Positions 11,439-53,837 of a stretch of 53,837 bases of DNA are shown piece by piece. This stretch comes from Planctomycetota bacterium. Lineage in GTDB: Bacteria; Planctomycetota; Phycisphaerae; Phycisphaerales; SM1A02. Below the pieces are notes generated by a model, which ran no database searches, was not told where the DNA came from, and saw nothing but the letters and a program-made list of their open reading frames with translations. Position 1 is the stretch's first letter; each line of letters opens with the position of its first letter. The stretch is taken from NCBI GenBank assembly GCA_016873115.1, contig VGYB01000010.1:1-53837 (forward strand), read 5' to 3'. Position numbers and translations under genes: made by a program.

Positions 11439-12131
11439 TCACTCAGCGTCGGCCTTCTTGGCCTTCTTGGCCTTCTCAGCCTTCCCGGCCCTGTCGGACT
11501 TCTCGGCCTTCTCGGCCGTTTCGGCCTTCTCAGCCGTTTCAGCCTTCTCAGCCTTCTCGGCCTTCTTGGCCTTCTTGGCCTTCACCTTGGGGGCGTCGCC
11601 TTCGGCGGCCGCTTCCTCGGTGGTGGGTGCTGGGGCCTCTTCGGTCGTTTCGGGCTTGCGGTCGATCTCCAGCACGCGATCGCTCTTGACGATGACATCG
11701 ATGTCGGTGCGCAGATCGCGGTCATATTGGATGGCCACCGAGCCCGAACCGACGCGGCGGAACGGCTGGCTCAGCCGCACGGCACGGGTATCGACGCCGA
11801 AGCCCATCTTGATGAGTTCATCGCTGATGTCGCGCTGCGTGACCGCGCCGTACAGCAGGCCTTGGTCGTTGGTGGAGCGGACGAGCGTGACGGTGACTCC
11901 GACGAGGCGCTCGATGAGGGCAGCGCGCTCGGCACGCTGCTTGGCCACTTCAGCCTCGGCGCGCGCACGGGCTGCCTTGAGCAACTCGATCTTCTCCTGC
12001 GTGGGGTGCTCAGCGAGGAGCATGGGCAGGAGGTAGTTGCGCGCGAAGCCTTGGCGCACCCGGACCACCTCGCCAACCAGGCCGAGGTTTTCAACGGTGT
12101 CGAGCAGCAGCAATTCGATGTGGGATGCCAT
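11439..12131 (-). CDS. rplI: Large ribosomal subunit protein bL9 with a long Lys/Ala/Glu-rich tail
   Basis: Ribosomal protein of the 50S L1-stalk base. Residues 1 to about 150 cover the whole family: the N-terminal domain with VENLGLVGEVVRVRQGFARNYLLP, the connecting helix, and the C-terminal rRNA-binding domain. From about 155 to 230 there is an extra low-complexity extension (acidic first, then repeats of AEKAEK/AKKAKK) absent from ordinary ~148-residue bL9. The start ATG 12131 has AAAGGA about 10 nt upstream, and a good promoter lies about 100 nt upstream. It is last in the ribosomal cluster, separated from ssb by 350 nt where rpsR is normally found. Confidence 0.95.
   Translation of the reverse strand: MASHIELLLLDTVENLGLVGEVVRVRQGFARNYLLPMLLAEHPTQEKIELLKAARARAEAEVAKQRAERAALIERLVGVTVTLVRSTNDQGLLYGAVTQRDISDELIKMGFGVDTRAVRLSQPFRRVGSGSVAIQYDRDLRTDIDVIVKSDRVLEIDRKPETTEEAPAPTTEEAAAEGDAPKVKAKKAKKAEKAEKAETAEKAETAEKAEKSDRAGKAEKAKKAKKADAE
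11452..11590 (-). repeat. Low-complexity repeats encoding the bL9 basic tail
   Basis: Near-identical 9- to 15-bp units encode alternating K-A-E-K-A and K-K-A motifs (for example AEKAETAEKAETAEKAEK). They look like expansion by slippage or unequal exchange within rplI and stay in frame throughout. Confidence 0.85.
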
Positions 12132-14247: not shown

Positions 14248-14931
14248 TCACTTCTTCGGCGCAGCGGCCTTCGCTGCGTCGCCGTCGCCAGCCTTCTTCA
14301 CTTCTCCGGCGGGCGCTGCGGCTTCTCCAGCGGGCGCTGCGGCTTCTCCGGCAGGTGTTGCGGCTTCTCCGGCCACTTCCTCGGCGATGATGATCACGCG
14401 GGCCACGGGGGCGTGTGCATCGATCGCCAGCGTGACGCCGGCAGGCAGCTTGAGTTCGCCCGCGATGAGTATCTCGCCCTGCATGGCCGACAGGTCGGCA
14501 CGCACGGACTCGGGGATGTCGCGCACCTTGCAGTGGATCGCGAGTTCGGCCAGGTCATGGGTGAGCACGGCACCTGGCTTCTTGGAGGCGGCGCACTCGC
14601 CGAAGAACTCGATGCGCACATTCACGCGCACGATCTCGTCGAGGTTCACGCGAGCGAGGTCGACATGGATGATGTCGTCGCCGAGGTAGCCGAACTGCAG
14701 TTCCTTGACCAGGCAGGTCTGGCTGGTGCCGCCGAGGGCGACGGTGATGACGTGGCTGCCGTGGTGCAGGTGCCCGAGCATCTCCTTGGCGTTGACCGCC
14801 GCAGAGACGGGCTTCTCGCCGTGGCCGTAGATGACCACCGGCAGCATGCCCTGTGCGCGGAGGCGACGGGTGTAGCGGGTGCCCAGCCGCTCACGCAGGG
14901 CGGCGGCGACGGTCGGGGTGGTGGATGCCAT
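14248..14931 (-). CDS. rplY: Large ribosomal subunit protein bL25, CTC family, with repeat tail
   Basis: 5S-rRNA-binding ribosomal protein of the longer general-stress (CTC) type: N-terminal L25 domain (residues 1 to about 95) and a TL5-type C-terminal beta domain (about 100-185). The N-terminus RERLGTRYTRRLRAQGMLPVVIYGHGEKP is characteristic. Residues from about 185 to 227 are an extension with three PAGEAAA-type repeats encoded by 21-bp DNA repeats near 14300-14372. The start at 14931 is supported by AAGGAG about 9 nt upstream. The gene order prs-rplY-pth matches that in Bacillus. Confidence 0.95.
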   Translation of the reverse strand: MASTTPTVAAALRERLGTRYTRRLRAQGMLPVVIYGHGEKPVSAAVNAKEMLGHLHHGSHVITVALGGTSQTCLVKELQFGYLGDDIIHVDLARVNLDEIVRVNVRIEFFGECAASKKPGAVLTHDLAELAIHCKVRDIPESVRADLSAMQGEILIAGELKLPAGVTLAIDAHAPVARVIIIAEEVAGEAATPAGEAAAPAGEAAAPAGEVKKAGDGDAAKAAAPKK

Positions 14932-48518: not shown

Positions 48519-51500
48519 ATGCCAGACCTTCCGACCATCGGCGGCGACGAGGATCCTCGCGAACCGGCGAAGCCGTTCGGGCAAGCCGGGCCCGATCCAG
48601 GATCGCCGGCTTCGTCAGCTGATGCCACGGTGGTCGGGGATGGAGCGTCGTCCGCAGGATCCGCGGCCCCGGCATCTTCCTCGGGCGCTCCCCGTACGCG
48701 CGTCCAACTCGAGAAGCCCGGCGACGTCATCGGCCCCTTCCGGCTCGTGAAGGAGCTCGGTGCAGGTGGCTTTGGTGTGGTGTGGCTCGCCGAGCGCAAG
48801 GTGCCCTACGAGCAGAAGGTCGCGCTCAAGCTGATCAATCCCGGCATGGATTCGAGCACGGTGCTCGGTCGCTTCGAGCAGGAGCGCCAGGCGCTGGCGA
48901 TCATGAACCATCCCAACGTCGCCAAGGTGCTCGATGGCGGCGTCACGGACATGGGTCGGCCGTACTTCGCGATGGAGTATGTCAAGGGCGAGCCGATGAA
49001 CGAGTACTGCGATTCGCGCAAGCTCGACCTTCGTGCGCGGCTCGAGCTCTTCATCCAGGTCTGCGAGGCCGTGCAGCACGCGCACACGAAGGGCCTGATC
49101 CACCGCGACCTCAAGCCCGGCAACGTGCTCGTGGCCGCCGGCGAGGGCGACCGCCCGACCGCGAAGGTCATCGACTTCGGCATCGCCAAGGCGCTCAACA
49201 CGCGCATGAGCGAGCACACGGTGATGACGGAGACCGGGCAGATGATCGGCACGCCGGAGTACATGAGCCCCGAGCAGGCCGACCCGGATGCAACCGACAT
49301 CGACACGCGCAGCGACGTCTATTCGCTTGGAGTGATGCTCTACGAGCTCTTGGTCGGTGCGCTCCCCTTCGAGCCCAAGGAACTGCGCAGCCGCGCCTAC
49401 CGCGAGATCCAGCGGATCATTCGCGAGGAGGATCCTCCCACGCCGAGCCGGAGGCTCTCGACGTTTGCCACCAAGGATGCGGGGTCGGCCTCGAAGATCG
49501 CCGAGGCCCGGCGGAGCAGGATCGACGAGATCGCCCAGACGCTCAAGAACGAGCTCGAGTGGATCCCGCTCAAGGCCATGCGCAAGGAGCGCGACCAGCG
49601 CTATGCGAGCCCCAACGACCTCGCGGCCGACCTGCGCAACTATCTGGGCGGACTCCCGTTGGTCGCGGCGCCCGAGTCGAAGGCCTACAAGGTCCGCAAG
49701 TTCGTGCGGCGCAACAGGGCGCTGGTCTACGCAGCCACCGCCGTGGCGGCCTCGCTCGCGATTGGCGCCGTGGTGAGCACCGTCTTCGCCATCGCCGAGG
49801 CGCGCCAGCGCGAGCTCGCCGAGCAGGCGGCGCTCGCCGAGAAGGCTGCTCGCGACCAGGCCGAAGCACTGGCCAAGGCCGAGCGTGCAGCGAAGGAACG
49901 GGCCGAGCAGCGAGAGCGTGATGTGAAGGCCGTGCTGGGCCAGCAGGTGCGCCTGACGAGCGAGTTCGGCGGCGGCGATACAGGGTCGCGCATGGCGGCT
50001 GAGCTGATGCGGCAGATCGATGCGTTGTCGCAGACGCTGGCGGATCCTGCGCAGCGCACCGCGATGCAGCAGAGCTTCCGCGATGCGCTCCTGCGCATCA
50101 ACATGACCGATGTCGCAGCCACGCTCGTCACCGAGATCATGCTTGAGCGTGCGATCGCCCGCGCCAGCACCGAGCACGCCAACGATCCCTTCGTGCGCGC
50201 TGGCCTGATCATGGCTGCGGGTCGCGCCTATCAGCAGCTCGGGCGGACGGAGCGTGCCGAGGAGCTCTTCCGGCAGGCGAGGGACCTCTACGGTGCGCAG
50301 CTCGGTCCGGACGACCGACGGACCATGCTTGCTTCGCAGTGGTTTGCGCGGGTGCGGCGTGACCGCGCAGAGGCTGAGCGTGGTCTTCGCGAGGTCCTTG
50401 CGCGCCTCACGGCGCTGCATGGCGAGGCCGATGTCGACACGGTCGAGTGCCGACGGCTGCTTGCGGCCTTCCTTGAGGAGAAGGGCGACCGTCGCGCCGC
50501 GCTGGCCGAGTACCAATCGGTGCTGGCCCAACCGTCGCTGACACCGGACATCCGCTCTGGCACGATGTCCGCCGTCGGCGATCTGCAGCGTGCAGGCGGT
50601 GACTTGGACGAGGCGATCGCCACGCTGCGGCAGGCGCGCACCGAGATCGAGCGCCTCCAGCCGGTGCCTGATCGGTTGCTGTCGAATGTGCTCACGAACT
50701 TGGGGTTGGCCCTGGCCGATCCGAGCACGCCCCAGTCTCAAGCTGAAGGCATCGCGCTCTTGCGCAAGGCCATTGCCATCGACTCCGCCTTCTACGGCGA
50801 TGCGCATCCCTTGAGCTTCGACAGCCGTGCCAACCTCGCCGCGACGCTGGAGCTGATCGATGATGGAAGCGGCTCCTCGATCGCCGAGGCCATCCGGGTC
50901 TTCGATGAGAACCGACGGGTGGGTTCGTCGCTCGTTGCGCCGCCGGACGAGCACCTGCTGTCGCTCATGGAGTCGGCCATGCTGATGGCGAAGACCGCAC
51001 CCGCGGACGAAGCCGCGGCCCGGCCCGTGCTCGCCGATGCGGTCAAGCTCGGCGAGGATGCGCTGCGCGTGGCCGATCAGCGGCGGATCGCCGACGCCGC
51101 TCGTTGGCGTGACTTCCGCAAGACCATGGCGTTCATCTACGCGCGTGCCGGTCGATTCGCCGACGCCGAGCGCCTGCAGCGGCAGGTGCGCGACCTCTGG
51201 CTTGCTGCGGGTGAGCCGACGGCGATTCCCGTCTTCAACATCACGAAGGATCTCGCCGGTGCCCTTGTGGCCCAAGGGCGGTTGGGCGAAGCCGTCGACC
51301 TGCTTCAGGCCATGCAGGATGCGAAGCCCTCGCGCGCGCCAACCAGCGATGCGCGCTGGGTGAACGCCATCATGCTGCGCGACCTGCTTCGCGAGCAGGC
51401 ATCGCGCGAGCTCGCGGGTCCTGCCAAGGCCAGGCTGGTCCAGCAGGACGCCGAGGTCGCCACGCTGCGCAAGGCCCGCGAGGCTGCCGGTCTGGGCGTG

Positions 51501-51554
51501 GACCTTGATGCGCCGGTTGCGCCCGAGCCTGCGCCGGATCCAGCGCAGCCTTGA
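48519..51554 (+). CDS. Membrane serine/threonine protein kinase with C-terminal TPR-like sensor region
   Basis: 1011 residues. A Pro/Ser/Ala-rich tail (1-68) precedes the Hanks-type kinase domain. It has the Gly loop GAGGFGVV (81-88), VALK with Lys104, HRDLKPGN with catalytic Asp197, DFG with Asp219, and GTPEYMSPEQ. After a helix-rich extension (about 310-400) comes one membrane helix (401-425), an Ala/Glu/Arg coiled coil (430-465), and about 500 residues of TPR-like repeats outside the membrane. This layout is common in planctomycetes. It probably senses an envelope signal; the substrate is unknown. The RCC1-repeat gene lies downstream, 202 nt away. Confidence 0.93.
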   Translation: MPDLPTIGGDEDPREPAKPFGQAGPDPGSPASSADATVVGDGASSAGSAAPASSSGAPRTRVQLEKPGDVIGPFRLVKELGAGGFGVVWLAERKVPYEQKVALKLINPGMDSSTVLGRFEQERQALAIMNHPNVAKVLDGGVTDMGRPYFAMEYVKGEPMNEYCDSRKLDLRARLELFIQVCEAVQHAHTKGLIHRDLKPGNVLVAAGEGDRPTAKVIDFGIAKALNTRMSEHTVMTETGQMIGTPEYMSPEQADPDATDIDTRSDVYSLGVMLYELLVGALPFEPKELRSRAYREIQRIIREEDPPTPSRRLSTFATKDAGSASKIAEARRSRIDEIAQTLKNELEWIPLKAMRKERDQRYASPNDLAADLRNYLGGLPLVAAPESKAYKVRKFVRRNRALVYAATAVAASLAIGAVVSTVFAIAEARQRELAEQAALAEKAARDQAEALAKAERAAKERAEQRERDVKAVLGQQVRLTSEFGGGDTGSRMAAELMRQIDALSQTLADPAQRTAMQQSFRDALLRINMTDVAATLVTEIMLERAIARASTEHANDPFVRAGLIMAAGRAYQQLGRTERAEELFRQARDLYGAQLGPDDRRTMLASQWFARVRRDRAEAERGLREVLARLTALHGEADVDTVECRRLLAAFLEEKGDRRAALAEYQSVLAQPSLTPDIRSGTMSAVGDLQRAGGDLDEAIATLRQARTEIERLQPVPDRLLSNVLTNLGLALADPSTPQSQAEGIALLRKAIAIDSAFYGDAHPLSFDSRANLAATLELIDDGSGSSIAEAIRVFDENRRVGSSLVAPPDEHLLSLMESAMLMAKTAPADEAAARPVLADAVKLGEDALRVADQRRIADAARWRDFRKTMAFIYARAGRFADAERLQRQVRDLWLAAGEPTAIPVFNITKDLAGALVAQGRLGEAVDLLQAMQDAKPSRAPTSDARWVNAIMLRDLLREQASRELAGPAKARLVQQDAEVATLRKAREAAGLGVDLDAPVAPEPAPDPAQP

Positions 51555-51756: not shown

Positions 51757-53837
51757 ATGCACTACCACCTCAACGTTGCTGCTCCACGCCGTGCGCTTGC
51801 CACCTTCGCCATGACCCTCGGCGGCGTGAAGCGGGTCTTGAGCGGATCGCTCCGCTCACTCGGAGTGCTCGCGACCACGATCAGTGCGTTGTCCACGGGT
51901 GGCTCGGCGTTTGCAAAGGGCCAGGAGCAGGGAGGGCAGGTGGTGCAGTGGGGGAGTGGTGACATCGCTCAGCCCGCATCGCTGCTTCCGTACAGGCAGG
52001 TCGCCTGCGGCAGCGAGCACACCTACGCCCTGAAGAACGACGGCACCCTGGTCGGCTGGGGCCGCAACCTACACGGCCAGACGAACACCCCCGCGGGCCT
52101 TGCCAACGTGTCGCAGGTCGCCTGCGGCATATACCACACCTACGCCCTGAAGAATGACGGCACCCTGGTGGGATGGGGCGCGGGCGGGCCAGGGCAGGCC
52201 GGCGGCGGTGCTCATTTGGGCCAGACCAACACCCCCGCGGGCCTCAGCGGCGTGAAGCAGGTCGCCTGCGGCGGCTACCACACCTACGCCCTGAAGAACG
52301 ACGGCACCCTGGTGGGATGGGGCAGCAACACCTACGGCCAGGCGACCACCCCCGCGGGCCTCAGCGGCGTGAAGCAGGTCGCCTGCGGCAGCTCCCACAC
52401 CTACGCCCTGAAGAACGACGGCACCCTAGTCGGCTGGGGCTCGAACGAACGGGGCCAGACGAACACCCCCGCGGGCCTGAGCGGCGTGAAGCAGGTCGCC
52501 TGCGGCGGCTACCACACCTACGCCCTGAAGAACGACGGCACCCTGGTCGGCTGGGGCGACAACCTATATGGCGCGACGACCACCCCCACGGGCCTTGCCA
52601 ACGTGTCGCAGGTCGCCTGCGGCCAGGCCGTCACATTTGCCCTGAAGAGCGACGGCACCCTGGTCGGCTGGGGCAGCAACTGGGACGGCCAGACGAACAC
52701 CCCCGCGGGACTTGCCAACGTGTCGCAGGTCGCCTGCGGCGACTACCACACCTATGCCCTGAAGAACGACGGCACCCTGGTCGGCTGGGGCCGGAACAAC
52801 GACGGCCAGACGGACACCCCCGCGGGCCTCAGCGGCGTGAAGCAGGTCGCCTGCGGCGGCGACCACACCTACGCCCTGAAGAACGACGGCACCCTAGTCG
52901 GCTGGGGCTACAACATGAACGGCCAGACGAACACCCCCGCGGGCCTGAGCGGCGTGTCGCAGGTCGCCTGCGGCGGCTCCCACACCTACGCTTTGAAGAA
53001 CGACGGCACGCTGGTCGGCTGGGGCCGCAACTGGGAGGGCCAGACGGACACCCCCGCGGACCTCAGCGGCGTGTCGCAGGTCGCCTGCGGCAGCTTCCAC
53101 ACCTACGCCCTGAAGATTGGCGGCACCCTGGTCGGCTGGGGCTCCAACATGCACGGCCAGACGAACACCCCCGCGGGCCTTGCCAACGTGACGCAGGTCG
53201 CCTGCGGCTACGGCCGCACCTACGCTCTGAAGAGCGACGGCACGCTGGTGGGATGGGGCGCCAACGACTACGGCGAGACGACCACCCCCACGGGCCTGAG
53301 CGGCGTGTCGCAGGTCGCCTGCGGCGGCTTCCACACCTACGCCCTAAAGAGCGACGGCACGCTGGTGGGATGGGGCGCCAACTTCTCCGGCCAGACGAAC
53401 ACCCCCGCGGGCCTTGCCAACGTGTCGCAGGTCGCCTGCAGCTCCCACACCTACGCCCTGAAGAACGACGGCACCCTGGTCGGCTGGGGCTACAACATGA
53501 ACGGCCAGACGAACACCCCCGCGGGCCTTGCCAACGTGTCGCAGGTCGCCTGCGGTGGTGGATTCACCGTTGCACTGCTCACGCCCGAAGCCAGCACCTG
53601 CACCAATCCCTCCGGCGCTGGCACGGCGACGCTGACCACGAGCGGATCTGCGTGGGAGAACGTGAGTGTGTGGACTTGGTCCAACGGTGGTGGTCCGCAG
53701 GTGCCTGGTGCGCTCTCAGCTGTCGATCTTGGTACATACGGATCTGTAGGCAGCACATGCGATGCGCAAGCAGCGAGCTTGGTGGCTCGAAGCGGGAGCA
53801 CGCTCTTGATGCCGGTGGATCTGTCGGTGCCTGCGTC
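51757..53837 (+). CDS. Exported RCC1-repeat (beta-propeller) protein, cut by the window end
   Basis: At least 693 residues; the frame is open to the last base, so the C-terminus is missing. Residues 1 to about 54 form a long signal peptide ending in GGSAFA. From about residue 80 there are 13 full RCC1-type units of 39 residues (one of 48, one of 38) and a partial 14th. Each unit follows the pattern VACGxxHTYALKNDGTLVGWGxNxxGQTNTP. RCC1 units are blades of beta-propellers that bind protein or other ligands. After the repeats comes a Gly/Ser/Thr-rich segment (TATLTTSGSAWENVSVW) of unknown type. It is possibly a cell-surface adhesin or recognition protein. Confidence 0.88.
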   Translation, partial: MHYHLNVAAPRRALATFAMTLGGVKRVLSGSLRSLGVLATTISALSTGGSAFAKGQEQGGQVVQWGSGDIAQPASLLPYRQVACGSEHTYALKNDGTLVGWGRNLHGQTNTPAGLANVSQVACGIYHTYALKNDGTLVGWGAGGPGQAGGGAHLGQTNTPAGLSGVKQVACGGYHTYALKNDGTLVGWGSNTYGQATTPAGLSGVKQVACGSSHTYALKNDGTLVGWGSNERGQTNTPAGLSGVKQVACGGYHTYALKNDGTLVGWGDNLYGATTTPTGLANVSQVACGQAVTFALKSDGTLVGWGSNWDGQTNTPAGLANVSQVACGDYHTYALKNDGTLVGWGRNNDGQTDTPAGLSGVKQVACGGDHTYALKNDGTLVGWGYNMNGQTNTPAGLSGVSQVACGGSHTYALKNDGTLVGWGRNWEGQTDTPADLSGVSQVACGSFHTYALKIGGTLVGWGSNMHGQTNTPAGLANVTQVACGYGRTYALKSDGTLVGWGANDYGETTTPTGLSGVSQVACGGFHTYALKSDGTLVGWGANFSGQTNTPAGLANVSQVACSSHTYALKNDGTLVGWGYNMNGQTNTPAGLANVSQVACGGGFTVALLTPEASTCTNPSGAGTATLTTSGSAWENVSVWTWSNGGGPQVPGALSAVDLGTYGSVGSTCDAQAASLVARSGSTLLMPVDLSVPA
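51997..53580 (+). repeat. Tandem 117-bp repeats within the RCC1 gene
   Basis: Fourteen copies begin with the CAGGTCGCCTGC core at 51997, 52114, 52258, 52375, 52492, 52609, 52726, 52843, 52960, 53077, 53194, 53311, 53428 and 53542. Spacing is 117 bp except for copy 2 (144 bp, a 27-bp insertion) and copy 13 (114 bp, loss of one Gly codon). Nucleotide identity between units is very high outside two short variable patches, and unit ends alternate between two versions (GLANVS or GLSGVK/GLSGVS). This indicates duplication or gene conversion. Confidence 0.95.

Follow-up and report, generated by a model that had tools for sequence, protein, structure and literature searches.

The propeller gene at the end of the window, i.e., the whole stretch of DNA analysed here (contig C10 of genome G000, 53837 bases, in an assembly of 2.36 Mb and 87 contigs), probably encodes an exported, dockerin-tailed recognition protein in which amplification and exchange of blades are combined with diversifying selection on five ligand-facing codons. 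According to this proposal, two BLIP-II-like seven-bladed RCC1 propellers would display about 70 residues on a single face of each ring, every blade giving five of them, two in its A-B turn and three in the WGxNxxG loop. Single blades would undergo amplification, unequal exchange or gene conversion, processes by which the arrays would be made and refreshed, the scaffold staying near-identical, while selection would diversify the five ligand-facing codons and then maintain their diversity. We infer from the evidence below that the protein is exported, that there are two rings, that they bind a protein or surface ligand and that diversifying selection is the cause. The interpretation offered by an earlier first-pass annotation is, taken as a whole, partly supported.

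The propeller gene and its repeats

The gene starts with an ATG at 51757 and lacks its 3' end, as the contig stops at 53837. The Pfam profile RCC1_2 (PF13540) matches it in 13 stretches (400 bits, E 1.4e-123), and a match to PF25390 was obtained with E 3.5e-104; a profile search with PF00415 returned zero matches, and PF13540 was used in its place. TRF detects a 117-bp tandem array at 52219-53555 with a score of 1653. The features of the locus are as follows, L074 and L075 being the two relatives of the gene in the sister species G005.

48519..51554, plus strand: upstream Ser/Thr protein kinase with TPRs (Pfam PF00069), syntenic beside propeller gene L075 in G005
51757..53837, plus strand: RCC1/BLIP-II-type propeller gene (ORF and Pfam PF13540, 13 stretches; 693 codons before the contig end)
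51757..51915, plus strand: putative export-signal-like N-terminus ending ...STGGSAFA (from the sequence; 135 bp identical in DNA to L074)
51934..51954, plus strand: N-terminal strand GQVVQWG, predicted to close ring 1 with unit 7 (AlphaFold strand E2-7; alignment)
51934..52767, plus strand: predicted propeller 1, seven blades (AlphaFold model; BLIP-II structural match)
52768..53580, plus strand: predicted propeller 2, seven blades (from the number of units; low model confidence)
51997..52113, plus strand: unit 1, loops SE / RNLH (scaffold as in unit 4 of L075 bar one base)
52114..52257, plus strand: unit 2 (48 aa), loop IY and longer second loop AGGPGQAGGGAHLG
52258..52374, plus strand: unit 3, loops GY / SNTY
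52375..52491, plus strand: unit 4, loops SS / SNER
52492..52608, plus strand: unit 5, loops GY / DNLY
52609..52725, plus strand: unit 6, loops QA / SNWD
52726..52842, plus strand: unit 7, loops DY / RNND (strands 1-2 predicted to close ring 1, strand 3 to open ring 2)
52843..52959, plus strand: unit 8, loops GD / YNMN
52960..53076, plus strand: unit 9, loops GS / RNWE
53077..53193, plus strand: unit 10, loops SF / SNMH
53194..53310, plus strand: unit 11, loops YG / ANDY
53311..53427, plus strand: unit 12, loops GF / ANFS
53428..53541, plus strand: unit 13 (38 aa, one residue missing: VACSSH), second loop YNMN
53542..53577, plus strand: half unit 14 (QVACGGGFTVAL), which would close ring 2 with strand 3 of unit 7 (topology after the seven-blade model)
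53587..53837, plus strand: beginning of the region after the propeller (83 aa, 93% identity to L074)

Thirteen units span 51997-53541. Eleven of them comprise 39 amino acids, one has 48 (unit 2, with a second loop that is 9 residues longer) and one has 38 (unit 13). By strand count, the closing N-terminal strand, the thirteen near-identical units and the closing half-unit add up to fourteen blades. The repeats described in the first-pass annotation are therefore real and its list of loop residues is correct, but the gene is 3'-truncated and the array consists of fourteen blades rather than being open-ended. The longer second loop of unit 2 (WGAGGPGQ..GQ, window 52180-52224) recurs in units 3, 5 and 11 of L074 and likewise in L123 and L170 of other genera, as though it were an alternative cassette common to several arrays. 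Elsewhere in the window, low-complexity tandem repeats are present on the minus strand at 11449-11583 and 14301-14373, apparently KAE-type and AAPAGE-type tails.

In pairwise comparison, the eleven full units are on average 83.9% identical in DNA, corresponding to about 98 of 117 bp and close to the roughly 100 of 117 bp estimated by eye from the letters in the first pass. Mean pairwise amino-acid identity of the full units is 77% with a minimum of 64%, which places the array among the highly repetitive propellers as defined in PMC9218822 (median blade identity >60%). It is the most homogeneous among 61 related arrays. Codon identity within columns amounts to 0.88 versus 0.74 after shuffling of codons for the same amino acid between columns, and none of 1000 shuffles reached the observed value. 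Codon preference is thereby rejected as an explanation of the near-identical scaffold, whose sameness reflects shared ancestry or exchange.

Predicted rings and the variable face

The first seven blades were modelled alone with AlphaFold, with fifteen seven-bladed relatives taken from the collection of loci. The segment forms a closed ring (pLDDT 92.2, pTM 0.89) that matches BLIP-II (3qhy_B) with Z 37.8 and an rmsd of 1.5 over 259 aligned positions at 42% identity (residues 1-278). BLIP-II ranks ahead of RPGR, HERC2, UVR8 and RCC1 in the structural comparison and is the best PDB sequence match as well. A full-length 14-blade model is poor after about residue 290, with pLDDT <60 through much of the second part; residues 7-283 of this model match BLIP-II over exactly seven blades (Z 33.7). 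In the seven-blade model, ring 1 is completed by the N-terminal strand together with strands 1 and 2 of unit 7. The third strand of that unit can open ring 2, and half unit 14 would close it. Most likely, the fourteen blades thus form two seven-bladed propellers, the second of which is proposed from the unit count. A single 14-bladed ring was considered and set aside, because the seven-blade segment closes alone at high confidence and relatives end after seven blades.

Blade number was counted in 83 arrays: 43 have seven blades, and most others count 12-15, which in many cases is an HMM undercount of fourteen. Fourteen blades are present both in the window gene and in L074 of the sister species. 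Free variation of copy number, as implied in the first pass, is not supported by these counts. Nor is copy number strictly in sevens; this is a tendency only, as two recently amplified arrays of genome G038 count 11 and 8.

For BLIP-II, 22 ligand contact residues have been published (PMC10817188); we took the list from this single secondary source and read the printed 'Tyr19' as Tyr191. When the units are aligned with BLIP-II, 20 of the 22 contacts fall in columns 6, 7, 23, 25 and 26, with one each in columns 24 and 30 (hypergeometric p 6e-19). DSSP on the model shows antiparallel A-B-C strands, with both loops located at the same end of these strands. Because the contacts map to these five columns and the loops share one strand end, the variable residues are predicted to form a single face, the one with which BLIP-II binds. 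The first-pass annotation had named burial of the variable residues between blades as an argument against its reading; upon inspection they are found on the predicted ligand-facing surface. By analogy with BLIP-II, this face of the window protein would bind a ligand.

The loops do vary as the first pass had it; the variable set, however, is not simply two loops but five codons around the almost invariant Asn24 and Gly27. In the window array, pN for codons 6, 7, 23, 25 and 26 is 0.616, compared with a pS of 0.147 and a pN of 0.087 for the scaffold. The ratio of loop pN to scaffold pS is 4.2 (bootstrap 3.4-5.6), from pairwise counts in which related units are taken to be independent. At codon positions 1+2, pi reaches 0.655 in the top five columns by variability; a neutral star simulation stays lower, at ≤0.42 with the observed synonymous rate and at ≤0.56 when this rate is doubled. 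Columns 36, 37 and 39 vary too, but as two linked linker haplotypes (ANVS and SGVK/S) and not as a diverse set. A constant scaffold combined with a diversified surface, the core of the earlier description, is borne out by these figures together with the position of the contacts on one face.

Across the 61 related arrays, these five columns again rank highest in variability, and loop pN ranges from 0.52 to 0.77 in all of them, whatever their synonymous divergence. In the four youngest arrays (scaffold pS <0.3), two of which stem from G038, a member of another taxonomic family, the loops are already saturated. The two G038 arrays, L104 and L142, are recently amplified RCC1 arrays that combine saturated loops with low synonymous divergence and represent independent replicates. 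Since RCC1 arrays in general vary at these columns, part of the pattern appears to be a family property. Note that the loop columns were first noticed through their variability. Their choice is not circular, because the 61 arrays and the independent BLIP-II contacts give the same columns, and the simulation further mitigates this concern.

All 29 full 39-aa units of the window gene, L074 and L075 carry distinct loop quintets. In composition, the loops contain 28% F, W, Y and H and 13% aliphatic residues, which looks like a binding surface. These data also bear on the possibility that the propellers are structural or enzyme-accessory modules whose loops are simply unconstrained. In RCC1 repeats generally, conservation is lowest in the loops, as such a reading would have it. 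Relaxed constraint, however, predicts pN no higher than pS, while the ratios obtained are 4.2 for the array and 2.3 for the sister-species paralogs treated below, and an excess of aromatic residues and histidine over aliphatic ones speaks for binding. We regard unconstrained loops as a highly improbable explanation and consider selection for binding the better one.

Exchange and diversification in related genomes

The comparison with G005 rests on one genome per species. Synteny between L075 (contig C20) and the window extends over the kinase and further upstream genes. L074 (contig C16) shares its N-terminus with the window gene; on the downstream side, the flank of L074 matches contig C34 of the window genome. 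C34 ends just past the gene, and contigs C16 and C20 both break inside L074 and L075, respectively. These breaks inside or directly beside the gene in two genomes suggest a tandem pair with near-identical ends. In G000, a second propeller-gene copy may reside in the gap between C10 and C34.

L074 continues past the propeller into FG-GAP repeats and a C-terminus resembling a GC-type dockerin (NF041540; E 2.8e-6, 27.6 bits, just below the curated cut-off of 29). About 60 similar dockerin-like tails occur in the window genome. Going by dockerin type and gene content, the source of the DNA is probably a planctomycete. In other genera, the same downstream region is found behind RCC1 arrays with differentiated blades in the same domain order. 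With its tail read from the ortholog L074, the window protein appears to be a member of this exported, dockerin-tailed family, distinguished by its homogenised array. The first pass had pointed to export signals, and both the putative signal-like N-terminus and the dockerin-tailed ortholog fit this view; judged by these features, the window protein is probably exported.

The ends of the gene and its repeats differ in history. At 51779-51913, 135 bp of signal-coding DNA are identical to L074, although dS between the window and the neighbours of L075 is 0.26 for the kinase and 0.81 for a membrane protein; this identity may reflect recent exchange or strong constraint. The post-propeller region differs from that of L074 with a dS of 0.11. 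The repeats are far more diverged from L074 at synonymous sites than the gene ends, and the unit type of the window occurs in units 3-5 of L075. Near-identical ends, diverged repeats and an L075-like unit type together suggest that the array was replaced or re-amplified between gene ends that stayed. The four-gamete test applied to the window array shows conflicts in 89 of 171 informative site pairs. Some of the blocks in conflict are multi-base haplotypes, and this points to exchange between units. Homogenisation by exchange, proposed in the first pass, is in agreement with such reassortment of variants.

An assembly artefact, in which a strain chimera or collapsed repeats produce the mosaic, has to be weighed here, because the window contig and the two G005 contigs end inside the gene and exact internal repeats reach 68 bp in the window array and 109 bp in the G005 copy. 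We consider it very unlikely: the frame is open over 14 blades, L074 likewise has 14, 61 independent arrays show variation in the same loop columns, and repeats of 68 bp are resolvable by usual k-mers or paired reads.

Close relatives with near-identical scaffolds differ in their loops, just as the first pass supposed. A comparison of window unit 1 with L075 unit 4 shows 11 differing bases: ten belong to the five loop codons, the remaining one to codon 8. Their 34 scaffold codons are alike bar that one base, and two loop codons have changed at all three positions. The same holds true for the two G005 paralogs when units are compared 1:1. Here, loop pN is 0.290, as against 0.124 for scaffold pS (Fisher p 0.0013) and 0.053 for scaffold pN (p 2e-9).

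Changes that are limited to short blocks of codons, often with several bases of a codon replaced and with near-zero synonymous change around them, could in principle be written by loop-targeted mutagenesis through a diversity-generating retroelement or a similar system. Neither the reverse transcriptase nor the template repeat that the first pass proposed to look for was found. The RVT_1 profile gave no match in the window genome, while control genomes gave matches, and a search with unit DNA retrieved only the array itself and a weak paralog, with no copy outside the array. A diversity-generating retroelement was rejected on these grounds. The changes moreover affect all bases and codon positions with no obvious adenine bias. 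As the genome is about 96% complete, an element may have been missed, but targeted mutagenesis in any form has very little probability compared with selection acting on exchanged blades.

A pair of orthologs in another genus behaves differently. Between G067 (L171) and G072 (L170), repeat number and 63 of 65 loop residues are kept at a propeller pS of about 0.01, and the loops change no faster than the scaffold. Replacement and synonymous changes number 8:2 in the propeller versus 2:13 in the tail (Fisher p 0.0015); in these near-identical genes, propeller and signal region carry most replacements and the tail almost none. The stability of these loops argues against very rapid loop switching, at least in differentiated members of the family, and fast turnover is not general.

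This stability is also in favor of the main rival explanation, namely that a recent single-blade amplification was followed by one-off specialisation of the blades for one fixed ligand and that no continuing arms race is involved. RCC1/BLIPII forms account for 10% of known highly repetitive propellers, for which a cycle of amplification and differentiation is described (PMC9218822). In addition, BLIP-II uses the same columns for one target class, relatives with the same domain order in other genera have differentiated blades, and the loop columns are variable family-wide. On the other hand, sister-species units on the same scaffold differ at nearly all loop codons, the two G005 paralogs share their scaffold and differ in their loops, and variants have been reassorted between units. 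One-off specialisation is therefore a serious alternative, albeit an unlikely one, and continued exchange with diversifying selection remains the reading that we prefer.

A wider proposal is more tentative, and we hold it for possible rather than probable: some bacteria would possess an exported two-ring RCC1 repertoire of the HET-E kind, in which blades are exchanged and homogenised and selection keeps about 70 ligand-facing residues hypervariable, with lineage-specific recognition as the outcome. If true, the surfaces of phage, kin or prey are examples of what might be recognized in this way.

Relation to known propeller systems

Highly repetitive RCC1 propellers are common in bacteria. In the window and its relatives, the variable positions coincide almost exactly with the BLIP-II ligand face and outpace the synonymous clock in independent arrays. 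Repetitive propellers thereby become a testable case of diversified binding surfaces, and they would offer a natural library that tells which five residues per blade change freely on an RCC1 scaffold. The highly repetitive RCC1/BLIPII propellers of Pereira and Lupas 2022 (PMC9218822) share with the window array a blade identity >60% and recent single-blade amplification. The part of that paper considered here reports amplification and, unlike the present work, contains no analysis of substitutions in RCC1 loops versus scaffold. The likeness to GC-type dockerin-anchored proteins (NF041540) comes via the C-terminus of L074, as the tail of the window gene lies off the contig.

BLIP-II of Streptomyces (PDB 1JTD, 3QHY) is secreted, as the window protein probably is, and is built, like the predicted ring 1, as a seven-bladed RCC1-type ring with blades of about 39 amino acids, and its ligand contacts coincide with the five variable columns. 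In contrast to the arrangement proposed for the window protein, it consists of a single ring of differentiated blades, lacks an FG-GAP or dockerin tail and has a known target. Fold and contact face match while the contact residues differ, and nothing suggests that the window protein binds beta-lactamase.

HET-E and HET-D of Podospora anserina show concerted evolution of blades, with positive selection on four codons that form two pairs on one face (PMC1805685). Near-identical blades and a few diversified codons flanking a conserved residue on one face are common to HET-E/HET-D/HNWD (PMC1805685) and the window array. The fungal proteins differ in that they contain WD40 instead of RCC1 blades, are intracellular NLRs with a NACHT domain and have a demonstrated role in self/non-self recognition. 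A Pfam search of the window revealed no NACHT domain and the blades are of the RCC1 type, so that membership in the HET-E/HNWD family proper is not claimed. Two hallmarks of HET-E are nevertheless found here, blade exchange (four-gamete conflicts in 89/171 pairs, array replacement) and an excess of replacements at few surface codons (4.2). By this analogy, the window array appears to work like HET-E/HET-D, its closest functional parallel.
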